64,000 nucleotides of DNA from Methanolobus mangrovi (lineage in GTDB: Archaea; Halobacteriota; Methanosarcinia; Methanosarcinales; Methanosarcinaceae), in the NCBI RefSeq assembly GCF_031312535.1, contig NZ_CP133594.1:2275934-2339933 (forward strand), in the 5' to 3' direction. Position 1 is the first letter of the stretch. Every line of letters begins with the position of its first letter. The position numbers and the translations under genes were made by a program. Under the pieces are notes generated by a model. It made no database searches. It saw only the letters and a program-made list of their open reading frames with translations, and had not been told where the DNA came from. Positions 15,491 through 57,424 of the stretch are shown piece after piece.

Positions 15491-16234
15491 TCAAAGGTAT
15501 TCAAAGACCATGCCATCATAGCCCAGGGGATATTCTTTGACCGCCTCATCATGAGGCTTGAAGAAATGGCTAAGGTGTGTGAATACTACTTTTTTAGCTT
15601 TAATTTCACAGGCTAGGTCCATAGCTTCTACGGTGTTCATGTGTTTTTTGACCTGTACTGTAGGCGGGACAATGGCATCGGCAATTAACAGGTCCGGCTC
15701 CATGATGGTCTCGATACTTTTCTCTGGAATGTCCCTCTGGGTATCTCCGGTGATGACCACTTTTGTATTTCCGTCCCGTACCATTACGCCTACCGACCTT
15801 TTCACAGGCGGATGTATGACTTCAAAAAGAGTGAATTCCAGACCAATAAGCTCAAAAGGTTCATACAGATTCCTTTCATTTTTTTTCGGGTGAAGGAACT
15901 GAAGGTAACCGAGAATATATTCGAGTGTTTCAGGCAGTCCGTAAACATCCACATTGTACTGGACCCTGTGGAATTCAGCAAAACCTGCAAAGTGGTCGTA
16001 ATGACCGTGAGTCCATATTACTCCGTCAATGTGTTTCGTATTTTGCCTGAGTAACTGGTATCGAAGATCGGGTCCTGTATCCACCAGCACACTACCTTCT
16101 GGTGACTCCACAAGGATTGCAAATCTGGTTCTCTGACTTTTACCGCCGTTATGAGCATCCTGGCATGTAGGACAATTACATCCAATAACAGGAGTGCCGG
16201 TAGCATCTCCTGTTCCAAGAATTGTTATCTTCAT
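15491..16234 (-). CDS. PhnP-like metallo-beta-lactamase-fold hydrolase
   Basis: The 247-residue protein has the di-zinc motif THGHYDHFAGF and ITGDTQ plus a late FTHLSHFF histidine. Its N-terminus carries TGTPVIGCNCPTCQDA, a cysteine cluster shared with PhnP-type phosphoribosyl cyclic phosphodiesterases. The reaction is probably phosphodiester hydrolysis; the true substrate in an archaeon without a phn operon is open. It is 18 nt downstream of the AAA ATPase gene on the same strand, so the two may be co-transcribed. Confidence 0.85.
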   Translation of the reverse strand: MKITILGTGDATGTPVIGCNCPTCQDAHNGGKSQRTRFAILVESPEGSVLVDTGPDLRYQLLRQNTKHIDGVIWTHGHYDHFAGFAEFHRVQYNVDVYGLPETLEYILGYLQFLHPKKNERNLYEPFELIGLEFTLFEVIHPPVKRSVGVMVRDGNTKVVITGDTQRDIPEKSIETIMEPDLLIADAIVPPTVQVKKHMNTVEAMDLACEIKAKKVVFTHLSHFFKPHDEAVKEYPLGYDGMVFEYL

Positions 16235-16252
16235 GAATTGTCCTGTACGTGC

Positions 16253-17524
16253 CTATTCTTCGTATTCATTGGTTTTGATAACTGCTCTTTCATCGAATGA
16301 TGCTACTGCATTGAGCATATCTTTCTCTGTAAGTTCGGTCCTCTCTGTAAGAAGCGCACTGAGTACAGCTTCACGGATGACCATACGCAGGTCCGAACCA
16401 CTATATCCGTGTGTCAGAGCTGCTATTTCTGCTGTATCAAAGTCACCTTTTATCTCTTTTGTGACAATATCAAGTATCTTTTTGCGCATTTCCGCGTCAG
16501 GCAGGGGGAATTTCATAATGTCATCAAAACGGCGCCATGCAGCAGAATCAAGCATCTTTGGGTGGTTTGTCGCTGCCAGAAGAAGCACTCCGTCTGTTGT
16601 GAGACTGATGTTATCAATGGCTTTGAGCAACGTATTCACAGCTCTCTTAAGTGCTGCATGTTCATCGGATGAACGTGTCTTTGCGACAAAATCAAATTCA
16701 TCAATAAAAAGTATACAAGGGCTTAATTTCTTGGCAAGTGCAAATACCCTGTCTATGTTCTTTGCAGTCTCTCCCAGGTACTGGTCGGTTATCATTGAGA
16801 GCCTGACCTCTACAAAGGGGGTGGAAAGGTGTTCTGACATTGCTTTTGCAAGTGATGTCTTTCCTGTTCCGGGAGGTCCGACCATGAGTATCTTGCCGAC
16901 ATCGTAAAGGCCAATATGTTTAAGGTAATCCCTGTACTTTATCGCCTTGACAATTTTCTTTGTTTCCTCTTCCTGTTCGGGTGTGAGGACAAAGTCTTCC
17001 ATGGTCTGGCGTATATCTTCCGGTGCGCTGATCTGTGCCAGCTTGAGCATCTCGGGGCCGCCATCTTCTTTTTCAATATCTGCGATCAGGGATTCTATCC
17101 ATTCCCTGTCAACTTCTTTTGGCCTTACTCTTGATTTTGCAGTGTTGTAGTCTGCACCTTCGGTCTTCTTTTTCTCAAAAAAGAATGCAAGAACGGGATT
17201 TTTCGATATTCTGTCCCTGTTTTCATCTTTTTTCTGAAACCATTCTGCTCCCACTTCAAGAGCTGTGACCTTTGCAGAAAAATCCATATCATCAATTGTG
17301 ATGAAAGGAAGTGATATTGATCTCTTATTTATTTTCTCAATATCGAATATCTTTTCTATATCAGCAACTGTAACCCTTATAGGCTTTAGAACTGTTTTGT
17401 GATCCCTGCTCCAGTAATATTTACGTATATCCTTGGGCAGATCACTCACATCCATCTCGGGATATTTGTTATATATTTGTGCTGTAAGTAGCAGTTCCAC
17501 AATATCGAGGGTTCTATCGGACAT
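16253..17524 (-). CDS. Single-domain AAA ATPase
   Basis: This is an AAA-family ATPase of about 423 residues with an N-terminal region of some 190 residues unlike known adaptors. The AAA core has Walker [11 protein letters not shown], Walker B CILFIDEFDF, sensor 1 LLAATNHP and an arginine-finger region AAWRRFDD, plus a C-terminal small domain (GYSGSDLRMVIREA). ATG 17524 is preferred because the AGGT box is 6 nt upstream of it; ATG 17530 is too close. Target and partner are unknown; a remodelling or protease-linked role is an inference. Confidence 0.88.
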   Translation of the reverse strand: MSDRTLDIVELLLTAQIYNKYPEMDVSDLPKDIRKYYWSRDHKTVLKPIRVTVADIEKIFDIEKINKRSISLPFITIDDMDFSAKVTALEVGAEWFQKKDENRDRISKNPVLAFFFEKKKTEGADYNTAKSRVRPKEVDREWIESLIADIEKEDGGPEMLKLAQISAPEDIRQTMEDFVLTPEQEEETKKIVKAIKYRDYLKHIGLYDVGKILMVGPPGTGKTSLAKAMSEHLSTPFVEVRLSMITDQYLGETAKNIDRVFALAKKLSPCILFIDEFDFVAKTRSSDEHAALKRAVNTLLKAIDNISLTTDGVLLLAATNHPKMLDSAAWRRFDDIMKFPLPDAEMRKKILDIVTKEIKGDFDTAEIAALTHGYSGSDLRMVIREAVLSALLTERTELTEKDMLNAVASFDERAVIKTNEYEE

Positions 17525-39702: not shown

Positions 39703-39739
39703 CAATGCAAACACAAAAATACTAACAACCAGATAATTT
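39703..39739 (+). promoter_or_regulatory. mutS promoter element shared with mutL
   Basis: The stretch begins CAATGCAAACACAAAAATA and continues CTAACAACCAGATAATTT. It recurs upstream of mutL (43781-43817) with only three substitutions in 37 bases. It ends 26 nt before the mutS ATG, so it probably holds BRE/TATA and upstream activator or repressor bases. Confidence 0.65.
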
Positions 39740-39765
39740 GCAGCACCAATTTTGTGTGAATTATC

Positions 39766-42426
39766 ATGAATAAAGTAACCCCTGCAATGCAGCAGTTCTA
39801 TGCTGCCAAGGAGGAGCATAAGGACGCCCTCATTTTCTTCCGTATGGGAGATTTCTATGAATCCTTTGGAGAGGATGCGAAGACCATCGCAAAGGAGCTT
39901 GAGATAACCCTGACCACTCGCGGGAAGGACAAGGATGGGGATAAAATGCCATTGGCAGGCATTCCTTATCATGCCATTGACACTTATCTTCCCCGGCTTA
40001 TCAAAAAGGGCTACAAGGTTGCCATCTGTGAGCAGCTTGAGGACCCGAAGAAAGCTAAGGGTATAGTGAAAAGGGGAGTTGTACGTGTAGTCACACCGGG
40101 TACTGCAATGGATTCTTCCATGTTCACAGATTCCTCAAATAATTATCTCATGGCGTTGTATGGGGAAAAGGATGAATACGGAATCTCTTTTCTGGATATT
40201 TCTACCGGTGAATTCCTTACCACACAGTTCACAGATATAGCTCCATATAACAGAATTGCAAGCGAAGCCGCACGTATGGGACCATCGGAATGCATCATGC
40301 CACGTTCCTTGCTTGTGGATTCTGATCTCACAGAACGCCTGAAGGAACTGAAGATCATCATTCACGAGTTTGATGGGGATGCTTTTGACTTCGAGAGGGC
40401 CGAAAAAGTACTCAGTGAACACTTCAAAGTATCAACTCTGGAAGGTATGGGTTGCAGCGAACTCCAATGTGCAGTGTCTTCTGCAGGAGCAGCATTGCGT
40501 TATGCAATGGATACCCAAATGAGGGAACTATCACAGGTGCAGTCCCTGAATACATATTTTGATTCCGAGTTCATGGTGCTGGACGCTATCACTTTGAGAA
40601 ACCTTGAGATCGTCAGGAATGTAAGGGGTGAAGGCAACGATTCCTCTCTAATCGGGGTTCTTGATGAGACAAAGACCCCAATGGGGAGAAGGCAACTCCA
40701 GAAATGGCTCCTGAAACCGCTGGTCTCGGCAGATGCTATCAATGATCGTCTGGATGCAGTTGCATGGCTCCATGATAACACGCTGGTTCGGTTTGATATT
40801 CGTGCCCACCTTTCATATGTAAAGGATATGGAGCGGCTTGTTGGGAGGGTAATGTATGGCAATTCAAATGCAAGGGACCTTGTAGCGTTGAAAAAGTCAC
40901 TTGAAGCTGTTCCGCTTTTACTTGAATCTCTCCGGGAATGCAAAGATGTGGATCTGCTGGAGAGCATCATGTCACAACTTTCTTCTTTCGGAGAACTGAA
41001 CGATCTTGCTAAACTGATCGACAGTGCCATTGTGGAAGAACCGCCCCTCAGTGTGAGGGATGGGGGAATGATAAAAGACGGATATAACGAGCAGTTAGAT
41101 GAACTGTTCGACCTGTCAAAGAACGGCAAGCAATGGATTGCCAAGTTCCAGCAGAAGGAAAGGGAAAGGACTGGTATCAAGTCCATGAAGGTCGGTTACA
41201 ACAAGGTTTTCGGATATTATCTTGAGGTAACAAAGGCTAACATCCCCCAGGTCCCTGATGATTATATCAGGAAGCAGACAATGACCAACGCCGAGCGTTT
41301 CTACACTCCTGAACTCAAGGAGCGTGAGAGTGCCATCCTTTCCGCTGATGAGAAAATGACAGCTCTTGAATATGAGTTGCTCTGCGATGTCAATTCAACC
41401 GTTGCATCATACTCAAAACAATTACAGGAAACCGCTGGCTTCATTGGCATGCTGGATGTAATGGCAAACCTTGCTGAAGTGGCTGCTAATAATAATTACG
41501 TAAGGCCTGCGATTACTCCTGATTGCAGACTTCTTATCAGGGATGGCAGACACCCTGTGGTGGAGAACACAGTTCCCGGAGGATTTGTTCCCAATGATAC
41601 GGAAATGGATTGCAGTGAGAACCAGTTCCAGCTTATAACCGGGCCGAACATGGCCGGTAAATCCACTTATATGAGGCAGATCGCCATGATAGTCATAATG
41701 GCGCAGGCCGGTTCCTTCGTGCCTGCTTCTCACGCTTCCATCGGCATTGTGGACAGGGTGTTCACAAGAGTTGGTGCTTTCGATGACCTTGCAAGCGGCC
41801 AGAGTACTTTTATGGTCGAGATGGTGGAACTTGCAAACATCCTGAACAATGCAACCCCGAAAAGCCTGGTGCTGTTGGATGAGATCGGCAGGGGTACGAG
41901 CACGTATGACGGTTACAGTATCGCAAAGGCTGTGGTGGAATATATTCACAACAAGGGCCGTGTGGGTGTGAGGTCACTTTTTGCCACGCACTACCATCAG
42001 CTCACTGACATCGCAGGCAACCTTAAACGTGTAAGGAATTACCATATTGCTGTAAAGGAAGATGGTGACGACCTTGTATTCCTGCGTAAGATCGTTCCGG
42101 GTGCAACGGACCGAAGTTATGGTATCCATGTTGCGAGAATAGCTGGTGTTCCTCATGCTGTCACCACGCGTGCTAAAGAGATCCTTGAGGATATCGAGAA
42201 TGAATGTATGATCAGTGAGGATGACCGCAAAGGCAAGAAGAAGCAGCGCAGCAGTGCCAAATACACTCAGGTTATATTGTTCGATCAGGATGCGTCCTAT
42301 GGTGAAACTGCTCCCCATCCGGTAATAGGGGAGTTGAAGGATATGGATTTGAATTCAATGACACCGCTTGAAGCACTCAACAGGCTCAGTCAGCTAAAAA
42401 CCAGGCTTCTGGAAGAGGGCAGATGA
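39766..42426 (+). CDS. mutS: DNA mismatch repair protein MutS
   Basis: The 886-residue MutS recognises mismatches. Mismatch-binding motif FFRMGDFYESFGEDA (Phe-x-Glu) lies near residue 27-35. The core and clamp follow, then Walker A TGPNMAGKSTYMRQ, Walker B LVLLDEIGRGTSTYDG and the HTH dimer region. This is a bacterial-type MutS1, limited in archaea mostly to mesophilic euryarchaea and thought to have been acquired. mutL lies 1.4 kb downstream, with a convergent MFS gene between them. Confidence 0.97.
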   Translation: MNKVTPAMQQFYAAKEEHKDALIFFRMGDFYESFGEDAKTIAKELEITLTTRGKDKDGDKMPLAGIPYHAIDTYLPRLIKKGYKVAICEQLEDPKKAKGIVKRGVVRVVTPGTAMDSSMFTDSSNNYLMALYGEKDEYGISFLDISTGEFLTTQFTDIAPYNRIASEAARMGPSECIMPRSLLVDSDLTERLKELKIIIHEFDGDAFDFERAEKVLSEHFKVSTLEGMGCSELQCAVSSAGAALRYAMDTQMRELSQVQSLNTYFDSEFMVLDAITLRNLEIVRNVRGEGNDSSLIGVLDETKTPMGRRQLQKWLLKPLVSADAINDRLDAVAWLHDNTLVRFDIRAHLSYVKDMERLVGRVMYGNSNARDLVALKKSLEAVPLLLESLRECKDVDLLESIMSQLSSFGELNDLAKLIDSAIVEEPPLSVRDGGMIKDGYNEQLDELFDLSKNGKQWIAKFQQKERERTGIKSMKVGYNKVFGYYLEVTKANIPQVPDDYIRKQTMTNAERFYTPELKERESAILSADEKMTALEYELLCDVNSTVASYSKQLQETAGFIGMLDVMANLAEVAANNNYVRPAITPDCRLLIRDGRHPVVENTVPGGFVPNDTEMDCSENQFQLITGPNMAGKSTYMRQIAMIVIMAQAGSFVPASHASIGIVDRVFTRVGAFDDLASGQSTFMVEMVELANILNNATPKSLVLLDEIGRGTSTYDGYSIAKAVVEYIHNKGRVGVRSLFATHYHQLTDIAGNLKRVRNYHIAVKEDGDDLVFLRKIVPGATDRSYGIHVARIAGVPHAVTTRAKEILEDIENECMISEDDRKGKKKQRSSAKYTQVILFDQDASYGETAPHPVIGELKDMDLNSMTPLEALNRLSQLKTRLLEEGR

Positions 42427-42427
42427 G

Positions 42428-42446
42428 CGTGAGGGTGCACCCTACG
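42428..42446 (+). terminator. Stem-loop between mutS and the convergent MFS gene
   Basis: CGT-G-AGGGTGCACCCT-ACG forms a GC-rich inverted repeat starting 1-2 nt after the mutS stop, followed by an AT-rich run. It may end transcription from both sides. Confidence 0.5.
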
Positions 42447-42477
42447 CCCATCAATTATTTTGATATTTATTTTTATT

Positions 42478-43662
42478 CTATTGCCCTGCAGCGATGCCTT
42501 TCTTTTGTAATATCATCCAGGCAACCAGGGTCAGAGCACCACAGATCAAAGTGATGCTTCCCAGAATCTGCATACGTTCCATCCATTCCTGAGATACCAG
42601 CCACATTCCCATAGCTCCAAGTGTGAAGTATGTGAATATCAATAAAGATGAAGCAGAGCCTGCATCTTTGTGTACCTGTTCAAGTACAAGGTGGTTACTC
42701 GGAGGTCTGCTGATGCCTATAGAATACGTTATTAGTGCCATGGGGATTGCAAAGCTCCAGGGTCCGCGCTGACCAATGACCAGAATAAGTACTGCTCCTA
42801 TTACTATCCCTGCAAAACCGGTGGTTATCAGATGCCTGGGGTTCATTCTGTCTGTAAGTTTCAGGCATGACATTGACCCTGCCATCAGGGCCAGAGCATT
42901 GAAGGCAAAGAAGTAACTGAAATTTTGCTCGCTCAGTCCGAATCCGTTGATGTAAAGGGCTGAAGAGCCGGCAATGAAACTGTATAACGGTAAAAGGCTT
43001 ACAGACATCACCAGAACCATGATTACATAATTTCTGTTAAGTAACAGATTGCCATAGGAATGCATAACCTTTGAAAGTGGGGTTTGTGAAGCTTCTTTCA
43101 ATGTTTCCGGTGTTCTGAGTACACCCAGAAGGCCTATAGCCCCCATTATTCCCTGGGCAACGAATATCCAGTGCCATGAAAAATATGTTAATAGCCATCC
43201 TCCTACGATTGGAGCAAACATAGGAGCCAGTGCCATGATTATGGCTATATAGGCAAGTATCCTCTGTCTTTCGGCTCCTGAAAAGATATCTTTTGTCATA
43301 GCCATGGAAAGGGCTGCACTGGCAGCAGCTCCCGCAGCTTGTAGTATACGGAATGCTATCAATGTGGCTGCACTGTTTGCCATGGCGCATAATACACTTG
43401 CAAATATGTACAGTGAGATGCCGATTATCAATGGTTTTCGGCGGCCGTATCTATCTGAGATCGGACCGTAGAAAAGCAGGAAGAATCCATAAGTGATGAA
43501 AAAACAAATGAGGATCAAATTGATCACTGCAATTGACTCGTTCCACATCAGAGCAAGTGATGGGATGGCAGGTAGTATCATATCTGTGGAAAAAGCCGGA
43601 AAGGCCGTCAAAAGAGCTAACAAAGGTACAATATTTTTTAGTTTTTCAGAATTGTCCATCAT
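42478..43662 (-). CDS. MFS multidrug exporter, Bcr/CflA type
   Basis: The 394-residue transporter has twelve predicted helices. The family signature is near the start: LPAIPSLALMWN, then FLLFYGPISDRYGRRKPLI, followed by FRILQAAGAAASAALSMAMTKDIF and the loop around APMFAPIVGGWLL. Bcr/CflA proteins export drugs, sulfonamides or sugars. AAGG lies just upstream of the ATG. The gene interrupts the mutS-mutL neighbourhood on the opposite strand. Confidence 0.92.
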   Translation of the reverse strand: MMDNSEKLKNIVPLLALLTAFPAFSTDMILPAIPSLALMWNESIAVINLILICFFITYGFFLLFYGPISDRYGRRKPLIIGISLYIFASVLCAMANSAATLIAFRILQAAGAAASAALSMAMTKDIFSGAERQRILAYIAIIMALAPMFAPIVGGWLLTYFSWHWIFVAQGIMGAIGLLGVLRTPETLKEASQTPLSKVMHSYGNLLLNRNYVIMVLVMSVSLLPLYSFIAGSSALYINGFGLSEQNFSYFFAFNALALMAGSMSCLKLTDRMNPRHLITTGFAGIVIGAVLILVIGQRGPWSFAIPMALITYSIGISRPPSNHLVLEQVHKDAGSASSLLIFTYFTLGAMGMWLVSQEWMERMQILGSITLICGALTLVAWMILQKKGIAAGQ

Positions 43663-43780
43663 GAACCTTCTAATTTTATGTTGCCTCTAACAGCACGAAT
43701 ATTTATAATTGTGTTGGGTATCCGTTGTTCTTTGTTCTCATATGCTTCCCCGGCTGAGGTTATAGTGGCAGGAACGTTCT

Positions 43781-43817
43781 CAATGCAAACACAAAAATAG
43801 TAACAATCAGATAGTTT
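43781..43817 (+). promoter_or_regulatory. mutL promoter element shared with mutS
   Basis: This is the second copy of the mutS element: CAATGCAAACACAAAAATA followed by GTAACAATCAGATAGTTT. It ends 55 nt before the mutL ATG, further away than in mutS, so the conservation is not explained by coding sequence and points to shared control. Confidence 0.65.
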
Positions 43818-43872
43818 TGGGTTAAAGGTTCAAGGGATCATAAATATACTTATTGTGGACAGGAAGTGAAAA

Positions 43873-45786
43873 ATGACGGATAAAGCATGTGATATCGGGA
43901 CTTCAAGAATAAGATTACTGGATGAGTCCACCATCAATAAAATAGCAGCGGGAGAAGTGATTGAGCGCCCTGCATCTGTGGTAAAGGAGCTTATCGAGAA
44001 CTCTGTCGATGCCCATGCTTCCGAAGTTCGAGTGGAAATAGGGGGGTATGGCACGAAAAGTATTCTTGTCGTGGACAATGGTGTCGGAATGAGCCATACG
44101 GATGCTTCACTTGCCTTTAAGAAACATGCCACCAGCAAAATAAACACGATCGAGGACCTCGACCGAATCCTTACGATGGGATTTAGGGGTGAAGCTCTGG
44201 CATCCATTGCTTCGGTTGCAAAGGTTGAACTCGTCACTCGACAGGAAGACAGCATCGGAGGCACCAAAGTCGTTGTTGACGGCAGTGGTATCAGAAACAT
44301 AAGTTCCGCAGGTACGGCTGTGGGAACCAGCATACTTGTCAATGACCTATTCTACAGCACACCTGCCCGCAAGAAGTATCTCAAGAGTGCAAGGACAGAA
44401 CTTTCTCACATTATAGATGTCGTTTCCAGGAATTCACTTGCACATTCAGACGTTTCATTCACTCTTGTGATAGATGGGAAGGTATCACTCAGGTCCCCTT
44501 CATCAGCTAAAATGCTGGACAGCATCGTTCATCTCTATGGTGCTGATGTTGCACGTTCACTTGTTCCACTGGAATATGAGTCGGACCTGCTTACGATATC
44601 CGGTTATATCTCAAAGCCTGAACTTACAAGGAGCGGAAAGGACCTTCAGGTCTTTTTCATAAATGGCAGGTCCATTTTTTCAAATCAGATAAGCAATGCT
44701 GTCAGGCTTGGATACTACACCCTTCTTCCGAAAGGTCGCTATCCTGCAGCTTTTCTTAATTTCATTATCGACCCTGTAAATGTGGATGTAAATGTACATC
44801 CTGCAAAAAGAGAAGTAAGGCTGAGCCATGAAAAAGAGATCGAAGCCATGGTTATCTCTGCTGTTGAGGATGCCCTTGGAAGAGGTTCACTGGTTCCCGA
44901 GGTACAGGTCAGGAAAAAAGATGTGCCTGTCCAGGTCCGTTTATCTGAGCCTGAGGTGAAAGAAGAACAGGAAACTGCAAAAACATCCGCTTCATCAGAT
45001 AAATTGAATGAATACGCCGGTTCAAACGTTTCGTATAAGGCGGATATTTCGGATGCATTGCTTGATGTTCAAACGAAAAGTGATCTTATCAAAGAGAGCA
45101 AAGAACCTTATCATTATCCTGCCAAGGATACCCAGAAGCGGCTGAAGAAAAGTGAGAGGCTGCAGATGAGCGTCACTTCAAATGAGATTGCAGAGCTTAG
45201 CAGCTCATTCAAACCATCTGATGTAAAAGTATACGGACAGTACGCTGACCTTTACATAATCAGTGAGATGGATGGCAAGCTCATACTCATTGACCAGCAT
45301 GCTGCACATGAGCGAATAATGTATGAACAGGTGCTCAGGATGCAGGACATGGCCTGGCAGGAACTTATCACGCCTGTGACACTTGACCTGAGCCAGAAGG
45401 AGAAGGCCATAATTGAGGATTTCATTCCTGATCTGGAGAACATCGGTTTCTCAATCTCAGAATTTGGTCCGAAAAGCTATGTAGTGACCACGGTTCCAAG
45501 CATTTTCGGCAAACTTGAGGACACTGATGTAATACATGATATAATTTCAGATCTCCTGTCCACCGGGAGGGTGAAAGAGGATACTGAAAGATATGATCTC
45601 CTTTGCAGTACTATGGCATGTAGGGCAGCTATCAAGGCAGGAGCGGTGTGCAGCACAGGGCAGATGGAAGAACTTATCCGTCAGCTGATGCGCTGCAACA
45701 ATCCATACACATGTCCTCACGGTCGCCCTACTATGATTTCCTTTACTAAAGATGAATTAGCAAAGCTGTTCAAAAGGACCGGATAG
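43873..45786 (+). CDS. mutL: DNA mismatch repair protein MutL (endonuclease type)
   Basis: The 637-residue protein has the GHKL ATPase motifs ELIENSVDA, DNGVGM, TMGFRGEALASI and GTAVGTSILVNDLF. After a linker of about 100 charged residues, the C-terminal domain has the metal-endonuclease motif DQHAAHERIMYE (about residue 473; DQHA-x2-E-x4-E) and CPHGRPT. It should therefore nick the daughter strand, as in MutH-less organisms. GGAAGTG precedes the ATG. It is the partner of mutS upstream. Confidence 0.97.
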   Translation: MTDKACDIGTSRIRLLDESTINKIAAGEVIERPASVVKELIENSVDAHASEVRVEIGGYGTKSILVVDNGVGMSHTDASLAFKKHATSKINTIEDLDRILTMGFRGEALASIASVAKVELVTRQEDSIGGTKVVVDGSGIRNISSAGTAVGTSILVNDLFYSTPARKKYLKSARTELSHIIDVVSRNSLAHSDVSFTLVIDGKVSLRSPSSAKMLDSIVHLYGADVARSLVPLEYESDLLTISGYISKPELTRSGKDLQVFFINGRSIFSNQISNAVRLGYYTLLPKGRYPAAFLNFIIDPVNVDVNVHPAKREVRLSHEKEIEAMVISAVEDALGRGSLVPEVQVRKKDVPVQVRLSEPEVKEEQETAKTSASSDKLNEYAGSNVSYKADISDALLDVQTKSDLIKESKEPYHYPAKDTQKRLKKSERLQMSVTSNEIAELSSSFKPSDVKVYGQYADLYIISEMDGKLILIDQHAAHERIMYEQVLRMQDMAWQELITPVTLDLSQKEKAIIEDFIPDLENIGFSISEFGPKSYVVTTVPSIFGKLEDTDVIHDIISDLLSTGRVKEDTERYDLLCSTMACRAAIKAGAVCSTGQMEELIRQLMRCNNPYTCPHGRPTMISFTKDELAKLFKRTG

Positions 45787-52895: not shown

Positions 52896-52907
52896 ATGTA
52901 TATATAC
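52896..52907 (+). promoter_or_regulatory. radA TATA box
   Basis: ATGTATATATAC is a strong TATA element about 70 nt before the radA ATG, with GGAGTTAAG as ribosome site just before the start. The implied leader is about 45 nt. Confidence 0.5.
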
Positions 52908-52975
52908 TCACAGATCAATTAGGTAATCGAATTGTGCACCGGAAGAAAACATGTGCACCCATGGAGTTAAGATAA

Positions 52976-53953
52976 ATGTCAGAAGTGTTATTAGAAGAAC
53001 TGGACCACGTTGGTCCGGCAACCGCGCAAAAATTGAAAGATGCAGGATTTACAACAATTGAGGCAATTGCTGTCTCCTCTCCGGCAGAACTTGCAACCGC
53101 AGCTGAGATCGGTGAATCAACAGCTTCAAAAATTATTCTTGCAGCCCGTCAGTCAGCTGATATTGGGGGTTTTGAGACGGGTGATGTTGTGTTGGAGCGC
53201 AGGAAACTTGTGGGTAAATTATCTACGGGTTGTACTGAATTCAATGAGATGATGGGCGGAGGAATAGACACGCAGGCAATAACTGAACTCTATGGTGAAT
53301 TCGGTTCCGGTAAAACACAGGTTGCACACCAGCTTGCTGTAAATGTACAGCTACCAAAAGAACAGGGTGGACTTAGTGGTTCTGTAATAATCATTGACAC
53401 TGAGAATACCTTCAGGCCTGAGAGAATCAAACAAATGGTGGATGGCCTTTCCGAAATATATGGTCAGGAATACGATCATGAAGAATTCCTCAAACACATA
53501 CATGTAGCACGTGCATACAATTCCAATCACCAGATACTTCTTGTTGATTCAGCAATGGAGCTTGCTAATGAACTAAAAGATACTGATATGCCGGTGAAGC
53601 TTTTTATTGTTGATTCCCTGACTGCTCACTTCAGGGCGGAGTACATAGGAAGGGGAACACTTGCCGACAGGCAACAGAAACTCAACAAACACCTGCATGG
53701 CCTGCAGAAGTGCGGTGATCTCTATAATGCTTGTGTCGTAGTCACAAACCAGGTTATGTCCAAACCTGATGCGTTCTTCGGTGACCCTACAAAACCAATC
53801 GGTGGTCATATTGTGGGACACACAGCAACTTTCAGGCTATACCTGCGTAAGTCCAAAGGGGATAAGAGGATAGTCAAACTAGTGGATTCTCCAAATCTTC
53901 CTGATGGAGAAGCAATAATTTCCGTGACAACTCCAGGTCTTCGTGACCCTTGA
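52976..53953 (+). CDS. radA: DNA repair and recombination protein RadA
   Basis: This is the archaeal Rad51-type recombinase, 325 residues. The N-terminal helix-hairpin-helix domain ([19 protein letters not shown]) binds DNA. Walker A is GEFGSGKT near residues 107-114, Walker B LFIVDSLT, then the L1/L2 loops and [12 protein letters not shown]. It forms filaments on single-stranded DNA. GGAG lies 9 nt before the ATG. Confidence 0.98.
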
Positions 53954-54859: not shown

Positions 54860-55135
54860 TTACATGCTGATACTTTCACTTTTAAGTCCGCGTGCTATAT
54901 TCTTGTCAACAACTATGTAGTCCTTTATTGCTCTTACAGATTCAAAAGGCAATAATATGTACTGTTCGTCAACCTTGTATCTTGATGTATCAAGACTCAT
55001 GTCCGGTTTAACTATCAGGTCTATGATATCTCCTGTTCTGATATCCATTACAATGTTGAACAGAATACCAATTTCTGTTCCATCTGTTGCCATTACCTGT
55101 TTGCTCGAAAGGTTTTTTGCAAAGACATTTGCCAT
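54860..55135 (-). CDS. PRC-barrel domain protein
   Basis: The 91-residue single-domain protein has VMATDGTEIGILFNIVMD, GDIIDLIVKPD and a final YILLPFESVRAIKDYIVVD, the beta-barrel layout of archaeal PRC proteins (often RNA- or complex-binding, near CdvA-type and RimM-type folds). ATG 55135 is 9 nt after AGGGG; ATG 55141 is too close. Its role is unknown. Confidence 0.88.
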   Translation of the reverse strand: MANVFAKNLSSKQVMATDGTEIGILFNIVMDIRTGDIIDLIVKPDMSLDTSRYKVDEQYILLPFESVRAIKDYIVVDKNIARGLKSESISM

Positions 55136-55183
55136 TTTCATTCGCCCCTTTGTATAAATGTCACATCTAAATTTTTCATATAT

Positions 55184-57424
55184 TTATCTGTATCCTATAT
55201 AAGAACTTGCTTCTTCTTTCCTTATGCCGCCCTTGAACTGTGCCTGTATTTTCTCATAATATTCCACCATATTCTCGGATAGTGTTGGCCTGACCTTGTT
55301 AAGAGCTTCCCTGAAGTATTTCATACTAACCTTTTGCACTTCAAAGTTGTCTCTCAGTGCCAGCATGACCGCTTCCCTGCAAACTGCTTCAATGTCTGCT
55401 CCGACGAAGCCTTCCGTGATGGTTGCAAGGTCATCAATTGTGACATCATCATCCATAGGTATGTTCTTGGCGTGTATTTTGAAGATTTCTTTTCTGCCTG
55501 CAAATGTAGATTGCCCTACAAGTACCATTCTGTCAAATCGTCCTGATCTGATGAGTGCCGGGTCTATAATATCTGGGCGGTTAGTTGCAGCAATGACTAC
55601 TATTTCTTTTAACGGCTCAAGACCGTCGAGCTCTGTCAACAGTTGGTTCACAATTCTTTCGGATACTTTAGAGTCCTCAGAGGCTGCACTTCTCATTGGT
55701 GCAATGGAATCTATTTCATCAAAGAATACTATGCATGGGGCCACCTGTCTTGCTTTCTTGAATGTCTCCCTGATGGCTTTTTCGGATTCTCCTACCCATT
55801 TGGAGAGCATTTGCGGTCCTTTCACACTAATGAAATTTGCATTAGACTCATTTGCGACAGCTTGTGCAATAAGTGTTTTTCCGGTACCTGGCGGGCCAAA
55901 CAATAAAACCCCCTTTGGAGGTTTTATTCCCATGTTCACGAATTTTTCAGGGTTGGTAAGCGGCCATTCCACAGCTTCCCTCATTTCCTGTTTAGCCTTG
56001 TCAAGCCCTCCTACGTCATCCCATTTTACGGAGGGGATTTCTACGAGGACTTCTCTCATTGCGGAAGGTTCTATTTCCCTGAGTGCATTCTCAAAGTCGT
56101 CCTTGCATACCATAATGGTCTCAAGTATCTCTGGGGGTATGTCTTCGTCTTCAAGATTGATATCTGGTAAGGCACGTCTCAATGAACGCATTGCAGCTTC
56201 CTGTACAAGGGCCAGGAGATCCGCACCAACAAATGCCTGTGTGTGTTTTGCAATGTAATCTAAAAAATCTTCATCGACATCATCAGCAAGCGGGACGCCT
56301 CTGGTATGGATCTGCATTATTTCCAGACGGTCATCTGTATCAGGAACACCAATCTCTATTTCCCTGTCAAATCTTCCGGGCCTTCGAAGTGCCGGATCAA
56401 TTGCATCCAGGCGATTGGTAGCACCTATTATAACGACCTGTCCTCTTTCCTCAAGGCCGTCCATCATTGTGAGCAACTGGGCTACAACCCTGCGCTCAAC
56501 CTCGCCTGTAACGTTCTCTCTCTTTGGTGCAATGGAGTCGATCTCATCGATAAATACTATGGATGGGGCATCATCCTCAGCTTCTTCGAATATTTTACGG
56601 ATACGCTCTTCACTTTCTCCGTAATATTTGCCCATTATCTCCGGGCCGGCTATGTAAAGGAAATTTGCTCGTGACTCATTTGCAACAGCTTTGGCAATTA
56701 ATGTCTTTCCGGTTCCGGGAGGTCCGTAAAGTATGATACCTTTAGGTGGTTCAATATTAAGCCTCTGGAAGAGTTCAGGGTGCTTTAATGGGAGTTCTAT
56801 CATTTCCCTTACGCGCTGTATCTCTGTGCTAAGACCGCCAATATCTTCGTATGTGGTGCCCCTGGTTGCGCCATCGTAACCACGCACGGGTTTCTGGCGA
56901 AGTTCTATTTCTGTAAATTCTCCAACGATGAGGACCTCATCTTCTTTTGGTTCAGTCTCAACGGCTACAAGCGGTATTGCCTGTCCGCCGCCCATCTGGC
57001 TAGACATGGGCTGTGTCATTGAACTTATAATGGGTACTATGTCTCCTTCTACAAGAGGGCGTTTCATAATATTACGTTTGATTATCTCGCTGATGTGGTC
57101 TCCATACTCCATGGTGACTCCTTCAGGAGGTGCAAGAATTACTTTAGTAGCAGTTACGACCTCGGCTTTCCTTACCGTAATTCTTTCTCCGATCCCGACA
57201 CCTGCGTTCTGCCTGATAAATCCGTCTATTCTGGCGATTCCCTGTCCCCAGTCCTGCCTTTCGGCTCTCCATACCTTGGCTGCAGTCTTTCTCTTTCCTT
57301 CTATCTCAACAATGTCGCCAGGTGAGAGTTGGAGACTTAAGAGTGTAGTAGGGTCCAGACGAATAATTCCCCTTCCAAAATCATTTGGGTGTGCTTTCTC
57401 TACTTTTATCTGTACTTCATCCAT
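55184..57424 (-). CDS. CDC48/VAT-type AAA+ unfoldase
   Basis: The 746-residue protein has the N-terminal double-psi barrel/CDC48_2 domains (about residues 1-185) and two AAA modules. Each has GPPGTGKT Walker A and an IDEIDSIAP Walker B. The C-terminal tail ends YIGYR, close to the hydrophobic-aromatic proteasome-binding end of VAT proteins. It unfolds proteins for the proteasome. ATG 57424 follows AGGGATG by 6 nt. Confidence 0.96.

Follow-up and report, generated by a model that had tools for sequence, protein, structure and literature searches.

The window, a 64,000-nucleotide stretch of the Methanolobus mangrovi genome, carries the mismatch repair genes mutS and mutL on the plus strand, with an efflux gene lying between them on the minus strand. 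Each of the two repair genes is preceded by a copy of the same 37-nt element. The locus contains the following features.

39703-39739, plus strand: element copy at mutS, interpreted as the mutS core promoter and, ancestrally, as that of a mutS-mutL operon
39766-42426, plus strand: mutS (NCBIfam TIGR01070 mutS1, 1011 bits)
42478-43662, minus strand: Bcr/CflA family MFS efflux gene, antisense between mutS and mutL (NCBIfam TIGR00710, 212 bits, cut-off 200.9)
43781-43817, plus strand: mutL copy of the element, read as a duplicated promoter and present in 14 of 14 split genomes of clade A (defined below)
43873-45786, plus strand: mutL (NCBIfam TIGR00585 mutl, 544 bits)

The pairwise comparison of the two copies showed a gapless match at 34 of the 37 positions. 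The mutS copy ends 26 nt before the ATG of mutS at 39766, the mutL copy 55 nt before the ATG of mutL at 43873, and the sequences flanking the two copies are unrelated. The original prediction, which described one 37-nt box with three differences at these distances from the start codons and an intervening gene on the other strand, was confirmed in all these points.

The element is confined to mutS and mutL

The number of element matches expected by chance in the window is zero. When the whole genome, a single contig of 2,623,311 bp, was searched with up to 3 mismatches allowed in 33 nt, the two copies were the only ones found. Weaker matches of 19 nt occurred seven times elsewhere in the genome and were not commoner than those of a reversed control pattern, which gave 12. 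It had been suggested that recA/radA, uvr or other repair genes might carry the element as well. The genome holds no further copy, which rules out a wider repair regulon.

The similarity of the two copies was then set against that of other upstream regions of this genome. Among 35,778 sampled pairs of upstream regions, the best chance match was 28 of 37, compared to the 34 of 37 seen for mutS and mutL; these promoter statistics were drawn from stretches that make up about 18% of the genome. One further pair exceeded 28 of 37. It matched at 36 of 37 positions and belongs to two tandem archaellin-like paralogs that have an upstream stretch in common (16074-16270 and 19657-19860 of L248). mutS and mutL are non-homologous, and near-identical sequence before two such genes of one genome is the pattern of promoter reuse, provided that the element is a promoter.

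Close matches to the element were observed in 25 of 112 genomes of the family, 33 in total, every one of them immediately before mutS or mutL. A comparison with the corresponding upstream regions of relatives, proposed together with the first description of the box, thus found it conserved. On a looser reading, 25 of the 26 mutS loci of Methanolobus have the element. It is also recognisable at mutS in most Methanococcoides, in the genera coded g2, g3 and g11 and in two genomes of g10 (Methanohalophilus). It was not seen at mutS in g13 (probably Methanosarcina), g9 and g12. In the other Methanohalophilus genomes the element is gone and mutS follows closely behind an ABC-transporter-like permease gene; a candidate identification of this gene with the efflux gene was rejected. 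As the element is found at mutS in nearly all Methanolobus and is recognisable in sister genera, the mutS copy is, judged by this distribution, the older one and ancestral at mutS. In one genome (G057, locus L183) the mutS element has decayed except for AAAAATAC and CCAGATA, and the mutL copy is intact.

Two near-identical copies 4 kb apart could also be a small repeat or mobile element that came to lie before both genes by accident. Such an element would be expected at several unrelated genes, but the genome has no other copy, no inverted ends were seen in the element, every family match lies at mutS or mutL, and the mutS copy is conserved across genera. Outside the family, about 85,000 species genomes were scanned, and a handful of stray matches turned up in unrelated organisms. 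The genome and family searches rule out a repeat or mobile family, and we give the accidental placement hardly any credence.

The element resembles an archaeal core promoter in layout

The element was then examined for promoter signals. The parts that stay constant across genera are AT(G)CAAA.AC, AAAATA, YAACA and GATA, and the two copies can be dissected as follows.

39706-39714, plus strand: BRE-like A-rich stretch of the mutS copy, directly preceding the TATA-like box
39715-39721, plus strand: AAAAATA, putative TATA-like box of the mutS copy; AAAATA is invariant in 12 mutS loci of 6 genera and persists in the otherwise decayed element of G057
39741-39745, plus strand: predicted transcription start region of mutS, placed by published spacing where the conservation between the copies stops; leader of 21-25 nt
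43793-43799, plus strand: AAAAATA, putative TATA-like box of the mutL copy, at the same place within the element as in the mutS copy
43819-43823, plus strand: predicted transcription start region of mutL, placed by the same spacing rule where conservation falls; leader of 50-54 nt

The AAAAATA box with AAACAC upstream of it is kept across genera. In the promoter map of M. psychrophilus, some 19-22 nt separate BRE/TATA from the start site (PMC5378194), and an AT-rich promoter-proximal element near -10 has been described in other archaea (PMC5316973). With this spacing the starts are predicted at 39741-39745 and 43819-43823, just past the stretch that both copies have in common. In an archaeal core promoter, an A/T-rich box is expected some 20-27 nt ahead of the start site, with an A-rich BRE upstream of it. 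A BRE-like beginning, AAAAATA and GATA at about -10, followed by a loss of conservation at the predicted start, make up a layout that fits the core promoters of archaea. The element resembles the published promoters in having the A-rich stretch, the A/T box, the AT-rich -10 stretch and the predicted start in the same order and spacing (PMC5378194, PMC5316973). It differs from the Thermococcus box, which is TTWTAW, in having AAAAATA, and the start sites here are predicted ones. De novo motif searches in 42 and in about 240 upstream regions did not recover a genome-wide TATA consensus, and the strand asymmetry of CAAAAAT in 133 upstream regions was weak (11 forward against 3 reverse). We therefore derived the box assignment from conservation and from the published spacing. 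In one genome (G053, locus L162) the mutL element has an internal tandem duplication with ACTAACAATCAGA present twice, which increases the distance between the TATA-like box and GATA.

Behind the element, mutS and mutL have unrelated leaders, each partly conserved among its own orthologs. This bears on the possibility that the element, being close to the start codons, is a transcribed 5'-leader RNA that controls the translation or mRNA stability of both genes. The unrelated leaders speak against it, as does the variable distance from the aligned 37-nt core to the ATG, which is 24 nt at most mutS loci, reaches up to 92 nt at mutL of G061 and is shorter still in g11. In g11 so little sequence separates the element from the mutS ATG that a transcript beginning at the predicted start would be almost leaderless. 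Folding was no better than that of shuffled sequences (z of -1.4 and +0.9) and no Rfam match was obtained. With neither significant structure nor an Rfam match, the RNA element was rejected, and we hold this reading to be very improbable.

The mutL copy accompanies a split between mutS and mutL

To place the two copies in context, we compared the arrangement of both genes among relatives. The two genes adjoin in Methanococcoides and in many other relatives, where mutL has no element. Five Methanolobus genomes (G041, G048, G052, G054 and G056) have the same arrangement, with a gap of 14-42 nt between the genes and one element, at mutS. In twenty Methanolobus genomes, the antisense efflux gene lies between mutS and mutL, and the gap is about 1.4 kb. 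A gap of 432 nt was found in G043. No ortholog of the efflux gene was detected in G043 or in the five genomes with the short gap. At locus L161 (G061), the interval between mutS and the efflux gene is about 1 kb longer and contains transposase-like ORFs; this gap has received an insertion twice.

The split genomes fall into two groups. Clade A consists of 14 split genomes including this one, each of which has a copy of the element before mutL. Clade B comprises seven genomes, counting G043, in which the split mutL has no element and a different conserved stretch (AAGGAAAAGTATGTGTATTTCC...) instead. A copy at mutL was found only where the efflux gene separates mutL from mutS. The genes are adjacent in relatives, the insertion belongs to the derived state and the element lies at the cut-off mutL, as in a split operon with a restored promoter, with ancestral cotranscription presumed. 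In clade B (L154-L160), the conserved stretch at the place of the clade A element has inverted-repeat character, AAGGAAAAGTATGTGTATTTCCTGATAC, and is possibly the mutL promoter of that clade. Since mutL of clade B is split and lacks the element, having the same promoter at both genes is not essential.

The history of the insertion was followed in the flanks and in gene trees. The side of the efflux-mutL intergenic region next to the efflux gene is alignable, and homologous, between clades A and B, and G043 has retained a remnant of the start of the efflux gene. Both observations favour a single insertion before the two clades parted, with later losses. In the tree of the efflux protein, clades A and B each form one group and the g11 copies sit between them without resolution, so that the efflux gene has probably moved between genera to some extent. 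The MutS tree did not reject a single clade of the 14 element-bearing genomes (AU p 0.25). In the MutL tree, G048 and G054, which are of the operon type, lie inside the element clade on long branches, and their position requires loss or recombination with an operon-type relative. We tentatively regard one of these two events as the simplest reading of the trees.

The original prediction held that the box ties the two repair genes together despite the intervening gene. This interpretation is supported in part. The position of that gene on the other strand stood, and a tie in expression would be plausible. A correction concerns the origin of the arrangement: the antisense efflux gene appears to have been inserted into an ancestral mutSL operon and to have split it, and only one Methanolobus clade has the copy at mutL.

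Both copies are old and evolve slowly

The age of the duplication was judged from element identities, with G057 left out. These averaged 0.883 for the mutS copies and 0.882 for the mutL copies of clade A. The mutS copy and the mutL copy were 0.832 identical within a genome and 0.817 between genomes, whereas the fourfold-degenerate sites of mutS had a mean identity of 0.511. These values show that the duplication is old and both copies are constrained, and they give little indication of exchange between the two. Purifying selection on both copies is accordingly well supported by these identities. The two ways in which the similarity had been explained at first fared differently. That of a shared promoter under selection has good support: the element is specific to mutS and mutL, conserved across species and slow to change in both copies. 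Recent duplication or gene conversion was ruled out, since the similarity between genomes is about equal to that within a genome (0.82 and 0.83).

For a control, we also measured other intergenic promoters of the window in ten relatives. Several of them reached 0.95-1.0 over 37 nt, compared to 0.90 for mutS and 0.88 for mutL, and others were lower. Strong conservation over about 37 nt is therefore ordinary for promoters of Methanolobus, and the sole unusual point is that one promoter sequence is common to two genes. Two of the control regions have features of their own. The region 52900-52975, upstream of a plus-strand gene at 52976-53950 which we take to be radA from the start of its protein, contains two GTGCACC copies (GTGCACCGGAAGAAAACATGTGCACC), is 0.95 conserved in 10 Methanolobus genomes and looks like a regulator site. 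Between the divergent ORFs at 54863-55141 (minus strand) and from 55365 (plus strand), the region 55142-55364 has a 37-nt segment that is identical in ten of ten relatives, which exceeds the mutS promoter; this segment may overlap the start of a longer minus-strand ORF.

The control also bears on whether the element could be an operator, with a dedicated regulator bound to the conserved sequence that surrounds the TATA box and continues behind it, and controlling mutS and mutL together as a two-gene mismatch-repair regulon. The conservation does run past the TATA-like box (YAACA....GATA) across genera, and the element was retained at both genes after the split and is found at no other gene of the genome. 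But other promoters of the window match or beat its conservation, no palindrome was seen in it, and mutL of clade B manages without it. As promoters in the same window are equally conserved over 37 nt, no dedicated regulator is needed, and we consider an operator unlikely. Slightly more doubtful still is the extended proposal that an archaeal mismatch-repair regulator binds the element and adjusts mutS and mutL jointly, for instance in a growth- or stress-dependent mutator control, and that the element was copied because the loss of joint control was harmful.

Taken together, the 37-nt element is probably the core promoter of mutS(L), duplicated at or after the split of the operon and retained since. 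In the ancestor, this promoter would have driven a mutS-mutL operon. An antisense efflux gene of the Bcr/CflA type would then have entered between the two genes and severed mutL, and a copy of the mutS core promoter would have reached the interval between the efflux gene and mutL in a single Methanolobus clade. Transcription of mutS and of mutL would now begin at near-identical promoters, each followed by a leader unrelated to the other, and purifying selection has held both copies. We infer the promoter function and the start sites from sequence conservation and published spacing, and a shared control or like expression of mutS and mutL would be plausible.

Relation to known systems and significance

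The nearest precedents appear to be promoter reuse in prokaryotes and the rescue of mutL in Streptococcus pyogenes. Promoter reuse and putative mobile promoters have been reported in prokaryotes (Matus-Garcia et al. 2012; van Passel et al. 2014). As these are summarised in PMC8049555 and PMC9208149, one promoter sequence is copied before a second, non-homologous gene, like here. The copy described here differs in being a single one within one split operon, old and vertically kept, and shows neither spread nor traces of a mobile element. In S. pyogenes, insertion of the SpyCI island at mutL severs the gene from its promoter, and mutL can be rescued by a new one (PMC3430984). Both cases share an insertion at mutL and a new promoter for mutL, but the streptococcal insertion is a phage-like island, with a cryptic promoter inside the integrase gene. 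In Methanolobus the insertion would consist of one efflux gene, and the promoter would be copied from the operon itself. The remodelling of haloarchaeal operons likewise includes gene insertion, wider gaps and internal promoters that arise (PMC7760734). That survey counts predicted promoters, whereas the new promoter of the present locus can be traced to its source.

For the regulation of mismatch repair in methanogens, no account was found in the literature searched, and the element offers a testable promoter for this system. The locus has built-in comparisons in a sister clade with another solution and in relatives with adjacent mutS and mutL. The process itself is ordinary, and the locus is a clear and well-resolved natural example of it, in which a split operon would have survived by copying its own promoter to the cut-off gene and keeping both copies.
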